From Pseudomonas arsenicoxydans (GTDB lineage Bacteria; Pseudomonadota; Gammaproteobacteria; Pseudomonadales; Pseudomonadaceae): DNA of 64,000 bases. The position numbers were made by a program, and so were the translations under genes. The notes beneath the pieces are model-generated. The model saw nothing but the letters and a program-made list of their open reading frames with translations. It was not told where the DNA came from and did not search any database. The stretch lies in the NCBI RefSeq assembly GCF_900103875.1, contig NZ_LT629705.1, positions 5,279,001 to 5,343,000 of the forward strand, written 5' to 3'. The number at the start of each line of letters is the position of its first letter. Within the stretch, counting starts at the first letter, position 1. This document shows positions 6,225-44,787 of this stretch, one piece after another.

Positions 6225-6932
6225 ATGACCGAGTTGGCGCGTTTGAAGTTCTATGCCACTCAGCCCCACTCTTGCAGTTATCTGCCCGAGGAGCAGGCCA
6301 CCACGCTGTTCCTCGACCCTAGTCAGCCCATGGATGTGCATGTCTACGCAGATCTGTCTGAAATGGGTTTTCGTCGTAGCGGCGATCATCTTTACCGGCC
6401 TCATTGCCAGAATTGCAATGCGTGCGTACCGGCGCGCATCCCCGTGGCGCAATTTACGCCCAACCGTCAGCAGAAACGCATTTTCAAACGCAACGCCGAC
6501 CTGCAAGTGCGCCCTGCCAGACCGCAATACAGCGAAGAGTACTTCGACCTCTACCAGCGCTACATCGAACAGCGGCACGCCGACGGCGACATGTACCCGC
6601 CGAGCCGTGACCAATTTTCGACCTTCCTGGTGCGTGACCTGCCGTTTTCACGCTTCTACGAATTTCGCCTCGAAGGCCGGCTGGTGGCGGTAGCTGTCAC
6701 TGACCTACTGCCAAACGGTTTGTCGGCGGTCTACACCTTCTACGAACCTGAAGAAGAACGCCGCAGCCTGGGGCGCTACGCGATCCTCTGGCAGATTGCC
6801 GAGGCCAAACGTCTCGGCCTGGAAGCCGTCTACCTCGGCTATTGGATCAAGAACTGCAAAAAGATGAGCTACAAGACCCAATATCGCCCCATCGAACTGC
6901 TGATTAATCAACGTTGGGTCATCCTGAACTAG
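6225..6932 (+). CDS. bpt: Aspartate/glutamate leucyltransferase (Bpt, Ate1-related)
   Basis: Member of the Ate1-like aminoacyl-tRNA-protein transferase family. By the Vibrio precedent, Bpt adds Leu to N-terminal Asp or Glu; many Pseudomonas entries are still labelled arginyltransferase. 235 residues, with the N-terminal cysteine cluster CQNCNAC (about 62-68) and the C-terminal domain containing [16 protein letters not shown] start at ATG 6225, not an in-frame TTG six bases earlier, because GAGG is properly spaced for the ATG. It follows aat by 57 bases, so both N-degron transferases are probably co-expressed. Confidence 0.93.
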
Positions 6933-7032
6933 AACCCCTTGGCTTAAACCCCATTTTTCGGGCACAATGCACGCCGCTTTTGCCTGGCGCAGTTGCACCG
7001 GGCCATTCATTGGACACCGAGGGCTTTACTGC

Positions 7033-7251
7033 ATGTCGAAAGAAGACAGCTTCGAAATGGAAGGCACTGTCGTCGACACCCTGCCCAACACCATGTTTCG
7101 TGTGGAGTTGGAAAATGGGCACGTCGTAACCGCGCATATCTCCGGCAAGATGCGCAAGAACTACATTCGTATTCTTACCGGTGACAAAGTGCGCGTCGAG
7201 CTGACGCCCTATGACTTGAGCAAAGGGCGCATCACTTACCGCGCTCGCTAA
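7033..7251 (+). CDS. infA: Translation initiation factor IF-1
   Basis: Single S1/OB-fold protein that binds the 30S A site during initiation. 72 residues ([11 protein letters not shown]), with the usual [19 protein letters not shown] core, ending KGRITYRAR. It is 100 bases beyond bpt and followed at once by a strong intrinsic terminator, so it ends this rightward group. The infA-aat-clpA neighbourhood is shared with enterobacteria. Confidence 0.98.
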
Positions 7252-7263
7252 TCAAGTCAATAC

Positions 7264-7292
7264 AAAACGCCCGGTTTATGCCGGGCGTTTTT
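7264..7292 (+). terminator. Intrinsic terminator after infA
   Basis: AAACGCCCGG and CCGGGCGTTT form a 10-bp stem around TTTATG, followed by further T residues. It begins 13 bases past the infA stop. Confidence 0.9.
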
Positions 7293-7345
7293 GTTTGTCT
7301 GCGATTTGGTGGGGGCCTGGGTTTTGGGTTCTTGGGTTCTTGGGT

Positions 7346-8078
7346 TTTGGGTGTATATCCGTTGCTGCGGTAACGGCTGCTGGCGGTTTCGCTTTTACAG
7401 CGACTCACTTTTCCAGACGCCGAAAAGTAAGCAAAAGGCTTCGCCCCGGCGTACGGCGCCTCGCTGAGGCTCCGCGTTCCCTCGCTACGGTGTCCATCAG
7501 GGGGCATCGCCTCCGGTCTGCTTCGCGACGACCTCCTCTCGATGTGTGCGGCTTCGCCGCACGGCGCTACGCGCCTAACCCCCTGATGAACACCTACGCT
7601 CGGCCTGCCGAAGGGGCGAAAGATCAAAAGCAGATCAAGATCAAGATCTAAAGCCACAGCCACAGCCACAGCAAGATCAAAAGATCGCAGCCTCGTTTCA
7701 CTCGACAGCTCCTACAGGGGGATCGGTGTGCATCCGCTTCTCACCACTCAACAGGATGAGCGTTAGCTCGGCTGCAGCTCTTGATCTTGATCCACGGGCG
7801 ACGTCGGAAGGCTGAGAGGAGGGATTCATCCGGGGTGGGAGCGCAGCGAGCGTTCGACGAAGTCGAACACATCGAGAGGAGGTGCAGCGAAGCAAACCGG
7901 AGGCGATGCCCCCCGGATGGATCCCGGAGCGAAGGAACCCCGAGCCTCAGCGAGCGGGCCGAACGTAGGAGCAAGCGTTTTTTTGCTTACTTTTTTTAGG
8001 CGTTTGTAAAAAAAGTGAGTCGCCGTAAGGGCGAAACCATAAGCAGCCGTTACCGCAGCAACGGATATACACCCAAAC
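7346..8078. repeat. Large imperfect inverted repeat, no credible gene
   Basis: The stretch from the infA terminator to the clpA terminator has no convincing gene. Its left part (about 7346-7570) is repeated inverted on the right (about 7855-8078). Shared landmarks, read inward, are a GGGTGTATATCCGTTGCTGCGG edge (20 bases: GTGTATATCCGTTGCTGCGG), GCGACTCACTTTT, AAGTAAGCAAAA, CTCGCTGAGGCTC, GGGGCATCGCCTCCGGT and CACCTCCTCTCGATGTGT-like blocks. The arms differ by substitutions and small indels. The centre (about 7620-7850) holds AGCCAC hexamer copies (about 7651-7672), AGATCA repeats and a 39-bp element also found at 51109-51210. Short frames here are by-products of the repeat. Confidence 0.8.
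7678..7716 (+). repeat. 39-bp repeat unit, same as the arms at 51109-51210
   Basis: This 39-base stretch (CAAAAGATCGCAGCC ... CGACAGCTCCTACA) is identical, as far as I can read, to the right arm of the inverted repeat at 51172-51210. Here it is a solo copy inside the large repeat region downstream of infA. It resembles dispersed intergenic repeats of fluorescent pseudomonads. Confidence 0.8.
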
Positions 8079-8086
8079 CCCAAACA

Positions 8087-8113
8087 GCAAAAAGGCGCCC
8101 GAAGGCGCCTCTA
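8087..8113 (-). terminator. Intrinsic terminator after clpA
   Basis: Read on the minus strand, AGGCGCC, loop TTCG, GGCGCCT and a T-run form a compact terminator about 25 bases beyond the clpA stop. It also marks the edge of the large inverted repeat. Confidence 0.85.
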
Positions 8114-39488: not shown

Positions 39489-39716
39489 ATGATCCGCAGG
39501 ATGGAAAAATCGAGGCGTGGGCGAACAATAAAACGAGAAGATCCGAGCGAAAAACGAATTGGAGCCATGAAGGGAAAACTTGCGCTTCCCGCTGACTTCG
39601 ATGCCCCTGGGTCAGACGATCTACTGGATGCCTTCGAAGGGTCGCTGCCACCACTTCCCTCATGCGCTTTGAAATACGAGAAGCACCAAATAGATAAACC
39701 AATACGAGATTGCGCC
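39489..39716 (+). pseudogene. Antitoxin remnant (C-terminal part of a Phd/YefM-like protein?)
   Basis: The frame running into the next gene encodes, around 39558-39650, SEKRIGAMKGKLALPADF then DAPGSDDLLDAFEG. This resembles the C-terminal tail of Phd/YefM-type antitoxins, in which RFGxxKGxxxxxxDFDAPL is common. The N-terminal DNA-binding part is missing and no toxin partner is present. The frame stays open into the XRE gene without a stop, so either a chance fusion or decay is possible. Recognition is by eye only. Confidence 0.4.
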
Positions 39717-40031
39717 ATGGAACGTGACATTTTTTCCGAACTGATGGATGGCCTCGAAGCCCTGGCGGATGAGCGCCAAGGCAAAATCACGTTGCGAACC
39801 CACAAGGTTCAGTTGCCAAAACTGGTGCCCATCACTGCCGAGGAAGTGGTAGCCATCCGCCAACAGCTCAACCTCTCCCGGTCCGTGTTCGCCATGTATC
39901 TGCGCACCAACACCCGAACCCTCGAGAATTGGGAGCAGGGACGGGCAATTCCCAATGCCCAAGCCACGACACTGATCCGCCTGGTTGAGCGTTTTCCGGA
40001 GACAGTAGCGCAACTGGCGGCACTGACTTGA
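39717..40031 (+). CDS. Orphan XRE-family antitoxin-like regulator
   Basis: 104 residues from MERDIFSELMDGLEALADER. The helix-turn-helix spans about residues 48-90 (ITAEEVVAIRQQLNLSRSVF, then TLENWEQG), the HigA/NadS-like type usually encoded next to a RelE/HigB toxin. No toxin gene is found on either side, only the remnant upstream. ATG 39717 is chosen because proteins of this kind begin MERD; the same frame extends 76 codons further upstream. The region is less GC-rich than nuo and looks like accessory DNA. Confidence 0.7.
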   Translation: MERDIFSELMDGLEALADERQGKITLRTHKVQLPKLVPITAEEVVAIRQQLNLSRSVFAMYLRTNTRTLENWEQGRAIPNAQATTLIRLVERFPETVAQLAALT

Positions 40032-40512: not shown

Positions 40513-40564
40513 TTTGACCGACCCACTTCCAACTTATACAGTTGCTCCGTGCTTGATTAAGCAC
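40513..40564 (+). promoter_or_regulatory. Promoter-like sequence and dyad of the YcaO cassette
   Basis: TTTGAC (40513-40518), a 16-base spacer and TATACA (40535-40540) make a sigma-70-like promoter 56 bases before the peptide gene. Just after it, GTGCTT/AAGCAC around GATT (40549-40564) is a perfect 6-bp dyad near the expected +10 to +25, usable as an operator or leader hairpin. Sequence-only prediction. Confidence 0.45.
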
Positions 40565-40595
40565 TTCACCAACCAACAATAAAGAGAGTCTACCT

Positions 40596-40724
40596 ATGGG
40601 TTACCTTGTCAGCTGGAACGCAAACAAAGTTATCGACCTGAAACAACAGGACACCCCCACAGCAGAACAAATTGAACAACTGCAACTGACCGAGGATGAA
40701 CAGGCAGAACTGGAAGCCGTTTAA
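40596..40724 (+). CDS. Putative RiPP precursor peptide, 42 residues
   Basis: Short reading frame with ribosome site AAAGAGAG about ten bases before its ATG. The N-terminal part, MGYLVSWNANKVIDLK, is mixed hydrophobic/aromatic; the C-terminal part, TAEQIEQLQLTEDEQAELEA plus V, is acidic, helix-prone and lacks Cys, Ser and Gly. It has no Cys at all and one Ser (position 6). In ordinary azole peptides the core is C-terminal and rich in Cys, Ser and Thr; here the C-terminus looks like a recognition segment, so a bottromycin-like arrangement with an N-terminal core and a follower is possible. The next genes encode a YcaO enzyme, a methyltransferase and a peptidase-like hydrolase. I do not recognise the product. 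Confidence 0.7.
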   Translation: MGYLVSWNANKVIDLKQQDTPTAEQIEQLQLTEDEQAELEAV

Positions 40725-40726
40725 GA

Positions 40727-40754
40727 AAACGGGGGGCAAATGCCCCCCGTTTTT
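40727..40754 (+). terminator. Terminator-like attenuator between precursor and YcaO genes
   Basis: AAACGGGGGGC and GCCCCCCGTTT pair perfectly (11 bp) around AAAT and are followed by more T. It starts two bases after the peptide stop and ends 15 bases before the YcaO start. Partial read-through would give much peptide and little enzyme, the usual need in RiPP operons. Confidence 0.8.
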
Positions 40755-40768
40755 CAAGGGAGGGAACA

Positions 40769-42004
40769 ATGGATAACTTTACACGTGCAGAACGAGAACT
40801 TACCCTCGCGCAGGCCGAAAAGAGGATTCATGCCGAACTGAAAAACCTGGGACTTCGCCCGGAACCCCGGATACTCGGGCAACAGATCGTCGCGGTGCAT
40901 GTCTCGGCGAGTGTTGGCAATCAACAGAGCATCGCCAGGGGAGCGGGAAAAGGTTACCTCCATCACGCCCAGGTGGGTGCACTTTACGAAACACTGGAAC
41001 ATTATCTAAGTGATCACTTCAGCTCCTGCGATATTCACTGCATCGCCCCGCACTACTTTTCCGACTCGCCACTATTTATCGATGACACTGTTCTTTCTGC
41101 TCTTATCGACCAACTCGATGCCTTGACAGCGTGCAGAACTTATACGGACATTTTCAAAAAAACTTCATTCTCTTACCCCGTTGCGTTATGCACTCCCAAC
41201 TATTCACGCCAGCCACTGGAACAAGACACTACGAACTACGGCGTATTACAGCGATATGCCTCTAACAGTGGAACGGCCATTGGCGCGAGTTACGACGAAG
41301 CGGTCTTGCATGCGGCAAATGAATGCATTGAGCGCGATGCGGTCTCGCTGTTTCTGCTGGAGCATTTTTACTACGAGAACCGGCCTGCGTTGCGCCGGGT
41401 CGCTCGCGTGGCAGATCACGAAGAGTTGGGTCAACTGTGGTCGGACGCCGAAGCGGAGATCGGAGCGGAAATCATCCTGATCGACATCAGCGCTGAATTC
41501 CTGCCACGCACCTTTCTGGCGTTCTCAACCGAACCTGGTCCCCATCCTCGCGTGTTCGGCAGCGGTAGCTCGATCAGCGCCCGACATGGCGCGTGGCGGG
41601 CGCTGACCGAACTCGTCCAACTGCATCACGGGGCCTCGGAACCAGAACTGCAACACTACCTGAGTAATGCGCAACGGCACCTGAGCAAATTTCCTCGCCT
41701 GCTCCGCTGCCTGCAATTCGATCTGTATCCACTGCTGACCCTGTGCGAGCAATTCACCGTCGAATTACCCGAAACGACCAATGAGCGACCGTTGGCCGAG
41801 CAAATCAACTTGCTGGCAGAAGATCTCCAAAAACATGGGCGCGTGCTGGGGGTCACCCAACTACATCAGACGCCGCTGGGGACCACGCTGGTCAACGTCG
41901 TCATTCCGGGGCTGGAGCGGTTTTTTGTGGTGTCCAGTGGCAATGTGGTGATACCAAAGGCACGAGGACGGCGCCTGCAAAGGAATCAGGGAGTGCCAGC
42001 ATGA
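40769..42004 (+). CDS. YcaO-family peptide-modifying enzyme
   Basis: 411-residue single-domain YcaO protein. YcaO enzymes use ATP to activate peptide backbone amides, making azolines, thioamides or amidines. The ATP/Mg signature is present: RGAGKG (57-62) with glutamates at 74 and 77, SNSGTA (165-170) with glutamates at 177, 185 and 188 before RD, and ALTELVQL (E281, Q284). The 8- and 3-residue Glu spacings match E. coli YcaO. VVIPGLERFF closes the domain; there is no Pro-rich C-terminal tail. No E1-like/RRE partner, flavin dehydrogenase or TfuA is encoded nearby, so it acts alone, as in bottromycin pathways. Strong AGGGAGGG ribosome site; four-base overlap with the next gene. Codons around 41050-41250 are AT-richer than the flanks, hinting at transfer. 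Confidence 0.88.
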   Translation: MDNFTRAERELTLAQAEKRIHAELKNLGLRPEPRILGQQIVAVHVSASVGNQQSIARGAGKGYLHHAQVGALYETLEHYLSDHFSSCDIHCIAPHYFSDSPLFIDDTVLSALIDQLDALTACRTYTDIFKKTSFSYPVALCTPNYSRQPLEQDTTNYGVLQRYASNSGTAIGASYDEAVLHAANECIERDAVSLFLLEHFYYENRPALRRVARVADHEELGQLWSDAEAEIGAEIILIDISAEFLPRTFLAFSTEPGPHPRVFGSGSSISARHGAWRALTELVQLHHGASEPELQHYLSNAQRHLSKFPRLLRCLQFDLYPLLTLCEQFTVELPETTNERPLAEQINLLAEDLQKHGRVLGVTQLHQTPLGTTLVNVVIPGLERFFVVSSGNVVIPKARGRRLQRNQGVPA

Positions 42005-42945
42005 CCCCTGCCCTTCGTCGAGAACACCGCCTCGCTCGATCATTCCCCCGGAGCAAGGCATCGCCGGGCGAGCTCGATCGCTTCATCGAACCCTTCGGCT
42101 CGGGCCTGCATCATTTGTTTGTCTTGCGTGTCGGCGGCAAAGAATGGGTCGGCCGCAAAGTCCTGCAACACAGCGAGACGGTCGGCTGGTACATCAGCAG
42201 CGTACTCCAACCCTGGATGCTGCTCGGACCGCTGGCGGAGTGGCACTGGGGCAATCAAGGCGCCGTGATCTATTTCCATGCGGTATCTGCGCAGGAGAAA
42301 GAAACCGCGTTCCACAACGCATTGACGCAGTCGGCCAGCGAAGTGCGTTTTCCGTTTCCTGCCATGGATGACAACGGCCGAGAGTGCGTCTGCCCGCCCG
42401 AGTACTGGCAATGTAATGAGTCGCTCGCCACACAGCTGGATGCTGATGAACAGCATTTTCGCCAGCATTGCACAAGCCTGCTCAGATCCCTGTCTTCTCC
42501 CGGCGCGGTGATCCATGACCCCGCGTGTTCGACGGGCGAGTTCATCGCGCACCTCGCTGGCGAACTCCCGGATCGCCAATGCCTGGGGTCTGATCGCTCA
42601 GCGTCGATGATCGAATATGCCAAAAAGCTTCATGGCACTTCAGCCGCCCGGTTCTACCTGGCCGATGCCCGCGACATCGCGACAACAGGTATTCAATGCG
42701 ATGTGCTGATCCTGCGCTTCCTCAATGCCGAAGTGATGTCGCGCAAGGACGCGCAGCGAGCGTTCCTCGATATGGCAGCCGGCGTTAAACCGGGAGGCAC
42801 GATTCTCCTTTTCGGCCATACGCCGGTGCTGATCGCCGTGCCCTATATGGCTCAGGTGCTGAAGCTTGAACTGATATCCAGCGTAGCGGCCCGTCCCGGC
42901 CACACGGAACTGTTTCAATTCTACAGGCTGAGGAAAACCGCCTAA
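42001..42945 (+). CDS. Class I SAM-dependent methyltransferase with N-terminal extra domain
   Basis: 314 residues in two parts. The C-terminal half (about 150-314) is a Rossmann methyltransferase: motif I IHDPACSTGEF (172-181), acidic residue after strand 2 in CLGSDRS (D198), ADARDI (221-226), and GVKPGGTILLFGH after strand 5. The N-terminal half (about 1-145; FGSGLHHLFVLRVGGKEWVG and CPPEYWQCNE) is not a domain I recognise and could bind the peptide or partner. The target atom is unknown; N-terminal amine, carboxylate or side chain are all possible. Starts inside the YcaO stop (ATGA) and shares one base with the hydrolase start (TAATG). Confidence 0.82.
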   Translation: MTPALRREHRLARSFPRSKASPGELDRFIEPFGSGLHHLFVLRVGGKEWVGRKVLQHSETVGWYISSVLQPWMLLGPLAEWHWGNQGAVIYFHAVSAQEKETAFHNALTQSASEVRFPFPAMDDNGRECVCPPEYWQCNESLATQLDADEQHFRQHCTSLLRSLSSPGAVIHDPACSTGEFIAHLAGELPDRQCLGSDRSASMIEYAKKLHGTSAARFYLADARDIATTGIQCDVLILRFLNAEVMSRKDAQRAFLDMAAGVKPGGTILLFGHTPVLIAVPYMAQVLKLELISSVAARPGHTELFQFYRLRKTA

Positions 42946-43811
42946 TGGTGAACAGTGGCTACTTCTCGACCGGCGACGGTCACCAACTCTATTGGGAACG
43001 GCACGGCACACCAGGGGGCGAACCGATATTTTTCCTGCATGGCGGGCCGGGGGGGTGCTGCGACAGACGTCATCTGGAGTTCTTCGATGAGCGCTGTTTC
43101 GACATTATCCTGTTCGATCAGCGTGGCTGCGGGCGCTCCGTTCCCCACGGCGAACTCCAATACAACGACACCGGGCTATGCGTCGAAGACATCGAAGCCC
43201 TGCGGCAGCACCTGGGGTTCGAAACGATCAGCATGCTCGGCGTCTCCTGGGGCAGCTGGCTGGCCATTCAATACCAGCAACGCTATCCAGAGGCCGTCCT
43301 GAAAACCACACTGGTCTCAGTATTCGTGCCGTTTGCAGCCAACGTAAGTGCCTACGATCAAACCTTGAATGGCGGTCTCTCGGCCATTGACCATGGGGAG
43401 TGCGCCGTCAGTGCCGGTGCGATCTACCAGATCCTGAACAATGGCTGCGCAATCCAGCAGCGCCAGGCGGCTCTCCACTGGTTAAGGGCGACTTTGCAAT
43501 TGAGCGGACAATCGATGCAGCCGAGCGCACTCGAAGAATTCGTTGACGACGAAGCCGTGCGCGCTATCCGCCTGGAATTGCATTACCACGTAAACCAGTA
43601 CTTCTTCACGCGCGCGGACGAAGCGCCTTCGCTTGATGCCCATACTGAAGTGATCCAAGGCATCAGCGATACCTTCGGCATGGCCAGCGTTCGCTGGCTT
43701 CGGCAGCACCAGCCGCTGCGATGCCGGCTACTCAACGCCGGGCACAACGCCTTCGAACTGGCAATTCTGAAAACCGTGCGCCAGTCGTTGAAACGTGCAT
43801 ATCTGCGCTGA
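42945..43811 (+). CDS. Alpha/beta hydrolase, proline iminopeptidase-like (S33)
   Basis: 288 residues, slightly shorter than typical prolyl aminopeptidases (about 310-320), mainly in the cap. Oxyanion loop HGGPGG (32-37), DQRGCGRS (58-65), nucleophile Ser101 in GVSWGSW, Asp242 in GISDTFG and His267 in NAGHNAFE, so the triad looks intact. Glu211 in LELHYH aligns with the cap Glu that holds the substrate's free N-terminus in prolyl aminopeptidases. It therefore probably trims an N-terminus, plausibly that of the modified peptide, rather than acting like the triad-lacking BotH epimerase. Last gene of the cassette; a terminator follows. No transporter or immunity gene is adjacent. Confidence 0.82.
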   Translation: MVNSGYFSTGDGHQLYWERHGTPGGEPIFFLHGGPGGCCDRRHLEFFDERCFDIILFDQRGCGRSVPHGELQYNDTGLCVEDIEALRQHLGFETISMLGVSWGSWLAIQYQQRYPEAVLKTTLVSVFVPFAANVSAYDQTLNGGLSAIDHGECAVSAGAIYQILNNGCAIQQRQAALHWLRATLQLSGQSMQPSALEEFVDDEAVRAIRLELHYHVNQYFFTRADEAPSLDAHTEVIQGISDTFGMASVRWLRQHQPLRCRLLNAGHNAFELAILKTVRQSLKRAYLR

Positions 43812-43927
43812 CAAGGTGAATCTTTTGGTGTCCTTCAGGGCGCCATTTTTTGCCCTCGGCTTCGGCTCGCAGGCAAATCGGATTTACCCTACTCCCTAAC
43901 TGGAAACCGATTGTCAGCTTTTCAATA

Positions 43928-43957
43928 AAAACGCGGCCCTTCTAGCGCCGCGTTTTT
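43928..43957 (+). terminator. Intrinsic terminator of the YcaO cassette
   Basis: ACGCGGC and GCCGCGT stem around a 9-base loop, with flanking A-run and a six-T run, 116 bases past the hydrolase stop. It can also act for the opposing gene at 43980. Confidence 0.8.
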
Positions 43958-43979: not shown

Positions 43980-44360
43980 TCAGCCCGCAGGGTCAACGTT
44001 ATCCAACGCCTTGTTCACTGCCAGTTCGCCGAGCATCACCACCTGCGCAATCCCCAATAACGTCTGACGGTGCGTGCCTTCCAGCAGCGCGGCAAAGTCA
44101 CCGAGCATGACCGTGGCCGAGGCCAGGGATTCGCAGGCATTTGCCAACAGGGACTCGGTGTCGGCTTTGGGATTGACGAAGAACATTTCGTTGGGGGTAT
44201 ATGGCGTGGCCATGATTTTGGCGCTGGGGTTGAGGTAATAGTCGAGGGCGCGGTCGGCGGCTTCGTGGAGTTTTCGGGTGTCCACGCAGACGTAGGGGGA
44301 TGTTGGGTCGGCGTCCGTAGCGGTATCTGCTTCGGGAGGGTTGGGGGTTGGTTTTTTCAT
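43980..44360 (-). CDS. DUF6124-like (formerly DUF3077-type) hypothetical protein
   Basis: 126 residues, start MKKPTPNPPEADTATDADP at 44360 with AAGGAAA upstream. The central DTRKLHEAADRALDYYLNP segment and the helical C-terminal part (LLANACESLASATVML, then VVMLGELAVNKALDNV) match a small protein family abundant and multi-copy in Pseudomonas. Function unknown; no signal peptide or membrane helix. A longer in-frame extension upstream overlaps the structured leader and is not believed. Convergent with the YcaO cassette. Confidence 0.75.
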   Translation of the reverse strand: MKKPTPNPPEADTATDADPTSPYVCVDTRKLHEAADRALDYYLNPSAKIMATPYTPNEMFFVNPKADTESLLANACESLASATVMLGDFAALLEGTHRQTLLGIAQVVMLGELAVNKALDNVDPAG

Positions 44361-44385
44361 AGGGTATTTCCTTTGCCTGAAAGTT

Positions 44386-44596
44386 GTAGCTGCCCCTTTC
44401 GGTTCCACGCGAAGGGTGGCAGCTGTACGCAGGTTGGAACCCGGGGGCAAAGAACCCGGCAGACCCGAAGGTCTCCCGCGCACAGCCGCCATAAACGGAG
44501 TGCACACATTGAAGGTGTGCAAGCATACGTTATGAAAGGCGCCTTGGCGCTGTATTGCCCTCGGGGTTCCAATCCCGATCGCTGAATTGGCAGCGA
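44386..44596 (-). ncRNA. Highly structured leader upstream of the DUF6124-like gene
   Basis: Plus-strand positions. A long hairpin lies next to the gene: GTAGCTGCC region with GGCAGCTGTAC (44386-44427), extended inside by CCTTTCG/CGAAGG. Beyond it, TTGGAACCC (44434-44442) can pair with GGGTTCCAA (44564-44572), enclosing AGACC-CGAA-GGTCT (44461-44474) and TGCACAC/GTGTGCA (44501-44507 with 44515-44521). TCGCTG/CAGCGA (44579-44596) lies outside. A closing stem around several hairpins suggests a multibranch RNA in the 5' leader, possibly cis-regulatory. Confidence 0.5.
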
Positions 44597-44787
44597 CGTG
44601 CACAGGCTAGAGAGCGGACGTCCGACGGACAACCTGAAAACATTGTGGGAAGGTTCTGCTCTTTCACCTAAACGCTTAAACATCCAGCATTGAAATACGA
44701 ACTGTGGTGCACGAAATTATCAGGCCAGTTCTGGCCTACCCACGAAAAAGCCGACCCATCCAGCATCTTCATTGACTGTCCCCACCG

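Follow-up and report, generated by a model that had tools for sequence, protein, structure and literature searches.

The 64,000 nucleotides of Pseudomonas arsenicoxydans analysed here (contig NZ_LT629705.1, positions 5,279,001 to 5,343,000; hereafter the window) contain a four-gene cassette built around a stand-alone YcaO enzyme. The best explanation, given a probability of roughly 0.6, is a follower-type cassette for a ribosomally synthesized and post-translationally modified peptide (RiPP), in which the YcaO would modify the N-terminal core of a precursor recognized through its C-terminal end. The cassette is real and recurrent, and it is nearly certainly a RiPP system. A YcaO RiPP as such is ordinary; what is unusual is an apparently leaderless plan in Pseudomonas and a partner enzyme, dependent on S-adenosylmethionine (SAM), that resembles isonocardicin synthase.

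The cassette

In this genome of 6.5 Mb the cassette is placed between the nuo operon and a gene for a solute-binding protein. Positions 40,596 to 43,811 hold four genes only:

40,596 to 40,724, plus strand: precursor peptide gene, 42 amino acids, with a predicted N-terminal core (MGYLVSWNAN...) and a predicted C-terminal follower (...LQLTEDEQAELEAV), the split between the two being putative
40,769 to 42,004, plus strand: stand-alone YcaO enzyme, 411 amino acids (Pfam YcaO, 3.7e-28; below the cut-off of the SagD family)
42,001 to 42,945, plus strand: isonocardicin-synthase-like SAM-dependent transferase, 314 amino acids, a predicted 3-amino-3-carboxypropyl transferase
42,945 to 43,811, plus strand: alpha/beta hydrolase, 288 amino acids, a divergent relative of prolyl aminopeptidase with the Ser, Asp and His positions kept

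The coordinates agree with the first-pass annotation, which had described a four-gene layout with overlaps of 4 bases between the YcaO and SAM enzyme genes and 1 base between the SAM enzyme and hydrolase genes. Pfam assigns the three enzymes to YcaO, to a class I SAM fold and to the alpha/beta hydrolases. The annotation had also proposed a unit making a small modified peptide, and this stands: the peptide, YcaO and SAM enzyme genes recur together, and the peptide frame is conserved as protein.

The precursor peptide

The 42-residue peptide is matched by 19 public proteins with identity up to 98 percent. No NCBIfam family matches it or five other precursors, and the best Pfam match has an E-value of only 0.23. 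A table of 61 mutually related YcaO loci was assembled from 54 loci of a genus search (58 places, of which G322, G115 and G146 were left out and G125 was two pieces of one gene; G and L numbers are the analysis's own handles for genomes and loci), three further Pseudomonas loci and four of eight matches in a plasmid collection. An open reading frame (ORF) that starts with MG, bears a ribosome-binding site (RBS) and lies at most 480 bases upstream of the YcaO gene is present at 57 of the 61 loci, as against 2 of 218 control ORFs, which are long ORFs taken mechanically from the same fetched DNA and some of which may not be genes. Any small RBS-bearing ORF with an ATG start is found upstream of 67 of the 218 controls. 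The four loci without an MG peptide in the scripted count are G106, G092, G238 and G188. The first does have the peptide, which was added by hand and stands among the 27 loci with an MGY peptide and outside the 57; G092 retains a truncated remnant that starts MSYMLSW, and the YcaOs of G238 and G188 are on a separate deep branch of the YcaO tree, which includes 57 of the 61 sequences, the other four being too short.

Purifying selection acts on the window-type peptides, as indicated by dN/dS values of 0.08 to 0.36 across 17 comparisons with the window peptide (a sample of 18 peptides of exactly 42 residues out of the 27 MGY loci). These values and the 57 of 61 loci run counter to both of the outcomes that the first-pass annotation had named as fatal to its proposal, namely YcaO loci that consistently lack the peptide and a frame that is not conserved at the protein level. 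The MG start and conserved C-terminus shared by the window peptide and those of related loci suggest an N-terminal core and a C-terminal follower, and the precursor very probably has no leader. The peptide had already been read as the substrate of the YcaO, which is supported; the leaderless plan with a follower was not among the earlier proposals.

It is conceivable that a cellular protein is the target of the YcaO and that the small peptide encoded upstream has a regulatory role or is a chance ORF. E. coli YcaO thioamidates the ribosomal protein uL16, with no small ORF beside its gene according to the available passages of PMC13063428. In the window, however, a conserved peptide gene ends 44 bases upstream of the YcaO gene. 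An MG peptide at nearly all of the loci, the purifying selection on it and the tracking of partner type by peptide type (see below) make a cellular target very improbable.

Peptide classes and their partners

The precursors were sorted into classes by their opening residues (MGY for class A, the window type; CCMY for class B; MGx[KR]R[ST]E for class D). Since the classes are defined in this way, a statement that class A has a tyrosine would be empty, and counts were therefore made by presence of the transferase. The peptide begins with MGY at all 26 loci where a transferase gene is adjacent (that of G106 by hand) and at 1 of 32 MG-peptide loci without the transferase (G074, whose YcaO is a fragment). 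Class A peptides mostly begin MGYxx[S]xNAN and mostly end like LQLTExEQAELxA. Class B peptides begin MGxxCCMYINEF and end like FTPEEAAVLAE, and at all four loci (L045 to L048) their partner is a pyridoxal phosphate (PLP) enzyme related to cystathionine gamma-synthase, possibly for a sulfur or gamma-substitution tailoring step. Class D peptides, which are about as common as the window type in the genus sample, begin MGx[KR]R[ST]E and mostly end like LATExNFFASL or FTESEIDFL; an ATP-binding cassette (ABC) transporter accompanies them at 25 of 25 loci (L049 to L072 and L135), 24 of which are from Pseudomonas and one from a Vibrio conjugative plasmid. When small ATG-start ORFs with an RBS were listed without restriction and inspected by eye, no further family recurred at the loci of classes A, B and D.

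The class A cassette occupies the site marked by nuoN and/or the solute-binding-protein gene in 13 of the 14 wide loci (one of them decayed, and two from a single genome), whereas nuoN is present at 0 of 28 class B and D loci. The decayed cassette, L073, is at the same site and retains an intact-looking MGY peptide and a YcaO fragment; its transferase gene was not found, and it follows that the cassette can be lost.

A cassette on a Pantoea plasmid (L134, 5,808 to 9,035) combines an MGY peptide and a YcaO with an isonocardicin-synthase-like transferase and an N-acyl amino acid synthase of the FeeM type. The only PDB match of its transferase at E 0.01 is isonocardicin synthase. Its YcaO clusters with those of class B with a support of 100/100, and on this placement the pairing of Tyr2 (residues are numbered here without the initial Met) with the transferase occurs on YcaO branches that are separate from each other.

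YcaO loci with MG peptides were also seen in Streptomyces (L133, 6,566 to 9,755, which includes a gene for a SagB-family dehydrogenase) and Nonomuraea (L132, about 6,600 to 8,100). Two loci with a distant YcaO, L074 and L075, have another small ORF (MNxTNETFALDASAVEAF...) that is not of the MG type.

The SAM-dependent transferase

The SAM enzyme is most similar to isonocardicin synthase, a 3-amino-3-carboxypropyl transferase, over its full length including the N-terminal domain and in both sequence and fold. Transfer of an aminocarboxypropyl group to Tyr2 is probable on this homology and on the co-variation of the enzyme with Tyr2. Its orthologues (E <1e-60) occur in 22 of 398 genus genomes, all of them within the 23 whose YcaO has at least 41 percent identity to that of the window, and ten other genus genomes have matches only at E 3e-5 or weaker. 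Among 398 phylum genomes an orthologue was found only in the window's own genome, the runner-up matching residues 150 to 275 at E 2e-8.

Alternatively, the RiPP system could be the same and its SAM enzyme a conventional O- or N-methyltransferase that retains a shape like that of isonocardicin synthase and methylates Tyr2 or another site. The Pfam labels of the enzyme are Methyltransf_25, Methyltransf_11 and Methyltransf_31, and the names given in the source records are mostly methyltransferase, as was the name in the first-pass annotation. That name gives way to the full-length match to isonocardicin synthase, and methylation is considered unlikely.

The YcaO enzyme and the predicted backbone modification

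A search of the window's own genome with the YcaO returned a single match. Across the genus 56 of 398 genomes have a match, 23 of them with at least 41 percent identity along the gene, and in a survey of 369 genomes of the taxonomic class nine genomes other than the window's had a YcaO match, the top one having 24 percent identity. In all of these surveys, those with the transferase included, no more than a few candidates were scored for each genome. The YcaO has 59.9 bits against TIGR03604, the SagD-type model for azole and azoline peptides, which is below the cut-off of 219.25.

An amidine, as opposed to an azoline or a thioamide, has about an even chance of being the modification. The shared Gly1, the absence of an E1 partner and the frequency of Ser, Thr or Cys at residue 5 of the peptide without its Met (47 of 56 distinct MG peptides) fit either an amidine formed directly or an azoline captured by Gly1. 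By type, the count is 18 of 25 for MGY, 4 of 4 for class B, 25 of 25 for class D, where residue 5 is part of the class definition, and 0 of 2 for actinomycetes. The same frequency would suit a YcaO that turns residue 5 into an oxazoline or thiazoline and forms no amidine. The cassette, however, has no gene for an E1-like protein or a dehydrogenase, the YcaO is under the SagD cut-off, and the conserved Gly1 would be unneeded for an azoline alone. Furthermore, 7 of 25 distinct MGY peptides lack Ser, Thr and Cys at residue 5, which rules out an azoline there in all members and favours a direct route to the amidine for class A. A product with an azoline in place of the amidine is thus somewhat unlikely.

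Formation of a thioamide on the peptide is improbable. At E 0.01 the sequence matches a single YcaO of solved structure, MJ1094, the model for thioamidation of the McrA glycine is among the weak matches, and the PLP enzyme of class B could supply sulfide. Against this, the cassette has no TfuA gene, and the YcaO reaches 50.1 bits with the thioamidation model, for which the cut-off is 365.

The hydrolase

The hydrolase scores 154.7 bits against the prolyl aminopeptidase model TIGR01249 (family S33), for which the cut-off is 259.75, whereas another member encoded in the same genome scores 438.8 bits. A true prolyl aminopeptidase is therefore excluded by score, the real one being encoded elsewhere in the genome. 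The window hydrolase keeps Ser, Asp and His where the 438.8-bit enzyme has them. One Glu of the 438.8-bit enzyme is replaced in the window hydrolase and in all seven aligned orthologues; this residue is presumably one of the two that hold the substrate amine in prolyl aminopeptidase. The earlier description as prolyl-aminopeptidase-like accordingly holds for the fold family and the three kept positions and fails at the cut-off, and the gene is not a constant companion of the cassette.

The hydrolase gene was found at 18 of 23 window-type genus loci (as a fragment in G121 and upstream of the peptide in G388), several fetched loci ending within the gene. Removal of the follower is the likeliest role of the enzyme. 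Removal of the initial Met is possible and is not needed, since host aminopeptidases usually remove it, a start of MGP being a poor case according to the available text of PMC5103208.

Proposed pathway

What is observed are gene order, conservation, co-occurrence, homology and fold; the chemical steps are inferred from these. The acidic C-terminal part of the precursor would be the follower recognized by the YcaO, and a host Met aminopeptidase would expose Gly1. The YcaO would then use ATP to activate a backbone amide within the first residues; if the Gly1 amine attacked this amide, an amidine like that of bottromycin would result, most plausibly at the bond between residues 4 and 5. From homology and co-variation, the transferase is predicted to move the 3-amino-3-carboxypropyl group of SAM to the phenol of Tyr2 with release of methylthioadenosine. 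The follower may be cut off by the hydrolase, or by a host protease where the hydrolase is missing. A conserved hairpin 3' of the precursor gene may result in more precursor than enzyme.

Several points weigh against this pathway. Identity of the SAM enzyme to isonocardicin synthase is 26 percent, and a switch to methyl transfer is thus possible. One genome with a window-type YcaO, G092, lacks the transferase and has the shortened peptide. Five of the 23 genus loci (G107, G047, G106, where the upstream region is cut by a contig end, G092 and G257) yielded no hydrolase gene, which means that other proteases must suffice in some strains, and the window cassette has no exporter gene. The invariant Gly is partly built in, because the peptide search demanded an MG start, and the 7 of 25 MGY peptides without a suitable residue 5 mean that an azoline at that residue cannot be general. 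The placement of the Pantoea YcaO joins long branches. Finally, the link to bottromycin is an analogy of architecture.

A wider reading, which is tentative and falls short of even odds, takes all of the classes together. Leaderless MG precursors and related stand-alone YcaOs would form a family across phyla. Within it the follower would stay linked to the YcaO, and the opening residues of the core would change along with an exchangeable tailoring partner: Tyr2 would come with the isonocardicin-synthase-like transferase, Cys-Cys with the PLP enzyme that resembles cystathionine synthase, and R-[ST]-E with an exporter dedicated to the peptide. The window's product would carry a free alpha-amino-acid arm on tyrosine beside an N-terminal amidine. 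As a suggestion only, such an arm would give the FeeM-type synthase of Pantoea a free alpha-amine, and its N-acylation could yield an appendage like an acyl-homoserine. If these proposals are true, aminocarboxypropyl transfer of the isonocardicin synthase type enters ribosomal peptides, and the follower-only, bottromycin-like plan extends to Pseudomonas, Pantoea and Vibrio. The four-gene systems would be small enough for reconstitution, and the simple rule that the first core residues predict the partner enzyme would make many YcaO loci testable.

Comparison with known systems

The precursor of bottromycin from Streptomyces (BotA/BtmD) likewise starts with MG and, as predicted for the window peptide, has no leader, an N-terminal core and a C-terminal follower, and a YcaO likewise acts without an E1-type partner (available passages of PMC10885120 and PMC5103208). 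The Met before Gly is lost (PMC10885120, in part), and the ring is thought to be closed by attack of Gly1 on the Val4/Val5 amide (PMC5103208, in part). As in the window, a putative terminator follows the precursor gene (excerpts of PMC7113386). Bottromycin clusters differ in having two YcaOs, radical SAM methylases, a cytochrome P450, an amidohydrolase and an M17 aminopeptidase, whereas the window cassette has one YcaO and none of the others, and has instead the isonocardicin-synthase-like transferase and the alpha/beta hydrolase.

The streptamidine family of Actinobacteria and Firmicutes is another group of YcaO RiPPs with a hydrolase gene adjoining the YcaO gene. Its chemotype is an amidine, which is proposed for the window cassette by analogy alone. 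Membership, which the stand-alone YcaO and hydrolase had suggested, was rejected on gene content: the streptamidine system has a leader, core and follower, the E1-like AmiB, the dehydrogenase AmiE and FecBCDE-like genes according to the available text of PMC8442711, and none of these is in the window cassette.

Isonocardicin synthase (NAT) of nocardicin biosynthesis, the full-length match of the window SAM enzyme in sequence and fold, has a phenol as its acceptor, which parallels the peptide Tyr that goes with the window transferase. MccD acts on the nucleotide part of microcin C. Like the predicted window enzyme, MccD adds an aminocarboxypropyl or aminopropyl group derived from SAM to a RiPP; NAT does not appear homologous to MccD and acts on a small molecule (PMC10491745, available passages). 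The window transferase, by contrast, adjoins a ribosomal peptide. No description of the cassette was found in the literature searched, which was mostly without subscription papers and comprised passages of, among others, PMC8719888, PMC7136475, PMC13063428, PMC12636437, PMC5103208, PMC7113386, PMC10885120, PMC10491745 and PMC8442711.

Regulatory signals

Candidate regulatory signals in and around the cassette are as follows:

40,514 to 40,542, plus strand: promoter-like site TTGACC-17-TACAGT, a single match that is not above chance (1 found, 2.1 expected)
40,549 to 40,564, plus strand: dyad GTGCTTGATTAAGCAC, just 3' of the -10 element, a possible operator or hairpin in the 5' untranslated region
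40,725 to 40,754, plus strand: attenuator-like hairpin between the precursor and YcaO genes (scan and folding)
43,826 to 43,845, plus strand: terminator-like stem directly 3' of the hydrolase gene (terminator scan)
43,930 to 43,957, plus strand: second terminator-like stem with a T run, seen by eye and unlisted by the scan (loop limit 8)

The hairpin, which the first-pass annotation had placed after the peptide gene, has counterparts at related loci: a stem of at least 9 pairs lies 3' of the peptide gene at 49 of 57 loci, and its sequence varies between loci. The mean best stem is 10.5 pairs as compared with 5.9 in shuffled sequences, and at 45 of the 57 loci no more than 1 of 60 shuffles reaches the observed stem. 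The eight loci without a 9-pair stem are G159, G156, G331, G245, G074 and those of Vibrio, Nonomuraea and Streptomyces. Imperfect terminators after precursor genes are common in RiPP operons, as stated in the accessible part of PMC7113386.

The dyad GTGCT-N6-AGCAC, with variation allowed (a second arm of [AG]GC[AG]C and, in one case, a 7-base spacer), precedes the start codon at 21 of the 26 MGY loci whose upstream regions were compared. The promoter-like site reported earlier is present and, by eye, aligns with comparable sequence 5' of the peptide genes at related loci, although as a single match it is no better than chance; a promoter pattern of fixed spacing matched 4 of the 26 upstream regions, the window's own not among them. 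The terminator reported earlier is visible by eye near 43,930 to 43,957 and absent from the scan, which gave the site at 43,826 to 43,845 (9 terminator-like sites found, 5.4 expected).

Neighbouring genes

A TonB receptor gene adjoins the cassette in four window-type loci (G388, G106, G092 and G257). This had pointed to a metallophore, a metal-binding product taken up through the receptor. The idea was dropped, as 264 of the 398 genus genomes encode a homologue of the receptor at E 1e-120 or better, versus 23 with such a YcaO, two candidates being scored per genome and none reaching E 1e-120 in G000.

Upstream of the cassette, the ORF at 39,489 to 40,031 fuses a VapB-like stretch (residues 17 to 40) to an MqsA/NadS-like antitoxin part, which starts at 39,717 and may be an intact orphan antitoxin. 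The earlier label of antitoxin debris is thus borne out in part, with both parts scoring under curated cut-offs. A close relative of the MqsA/NadS-like part is at the same place in L004 and L005, and two ORFs resembling an antitoxin/toxin pair were seen by eye in L003 and L073. On the other side, a gene for a DUF6124 protein (43,980 to 44,603, minus strand) adjoins the cassette, and a similar ORF was seen by eye near the cassette of L004.
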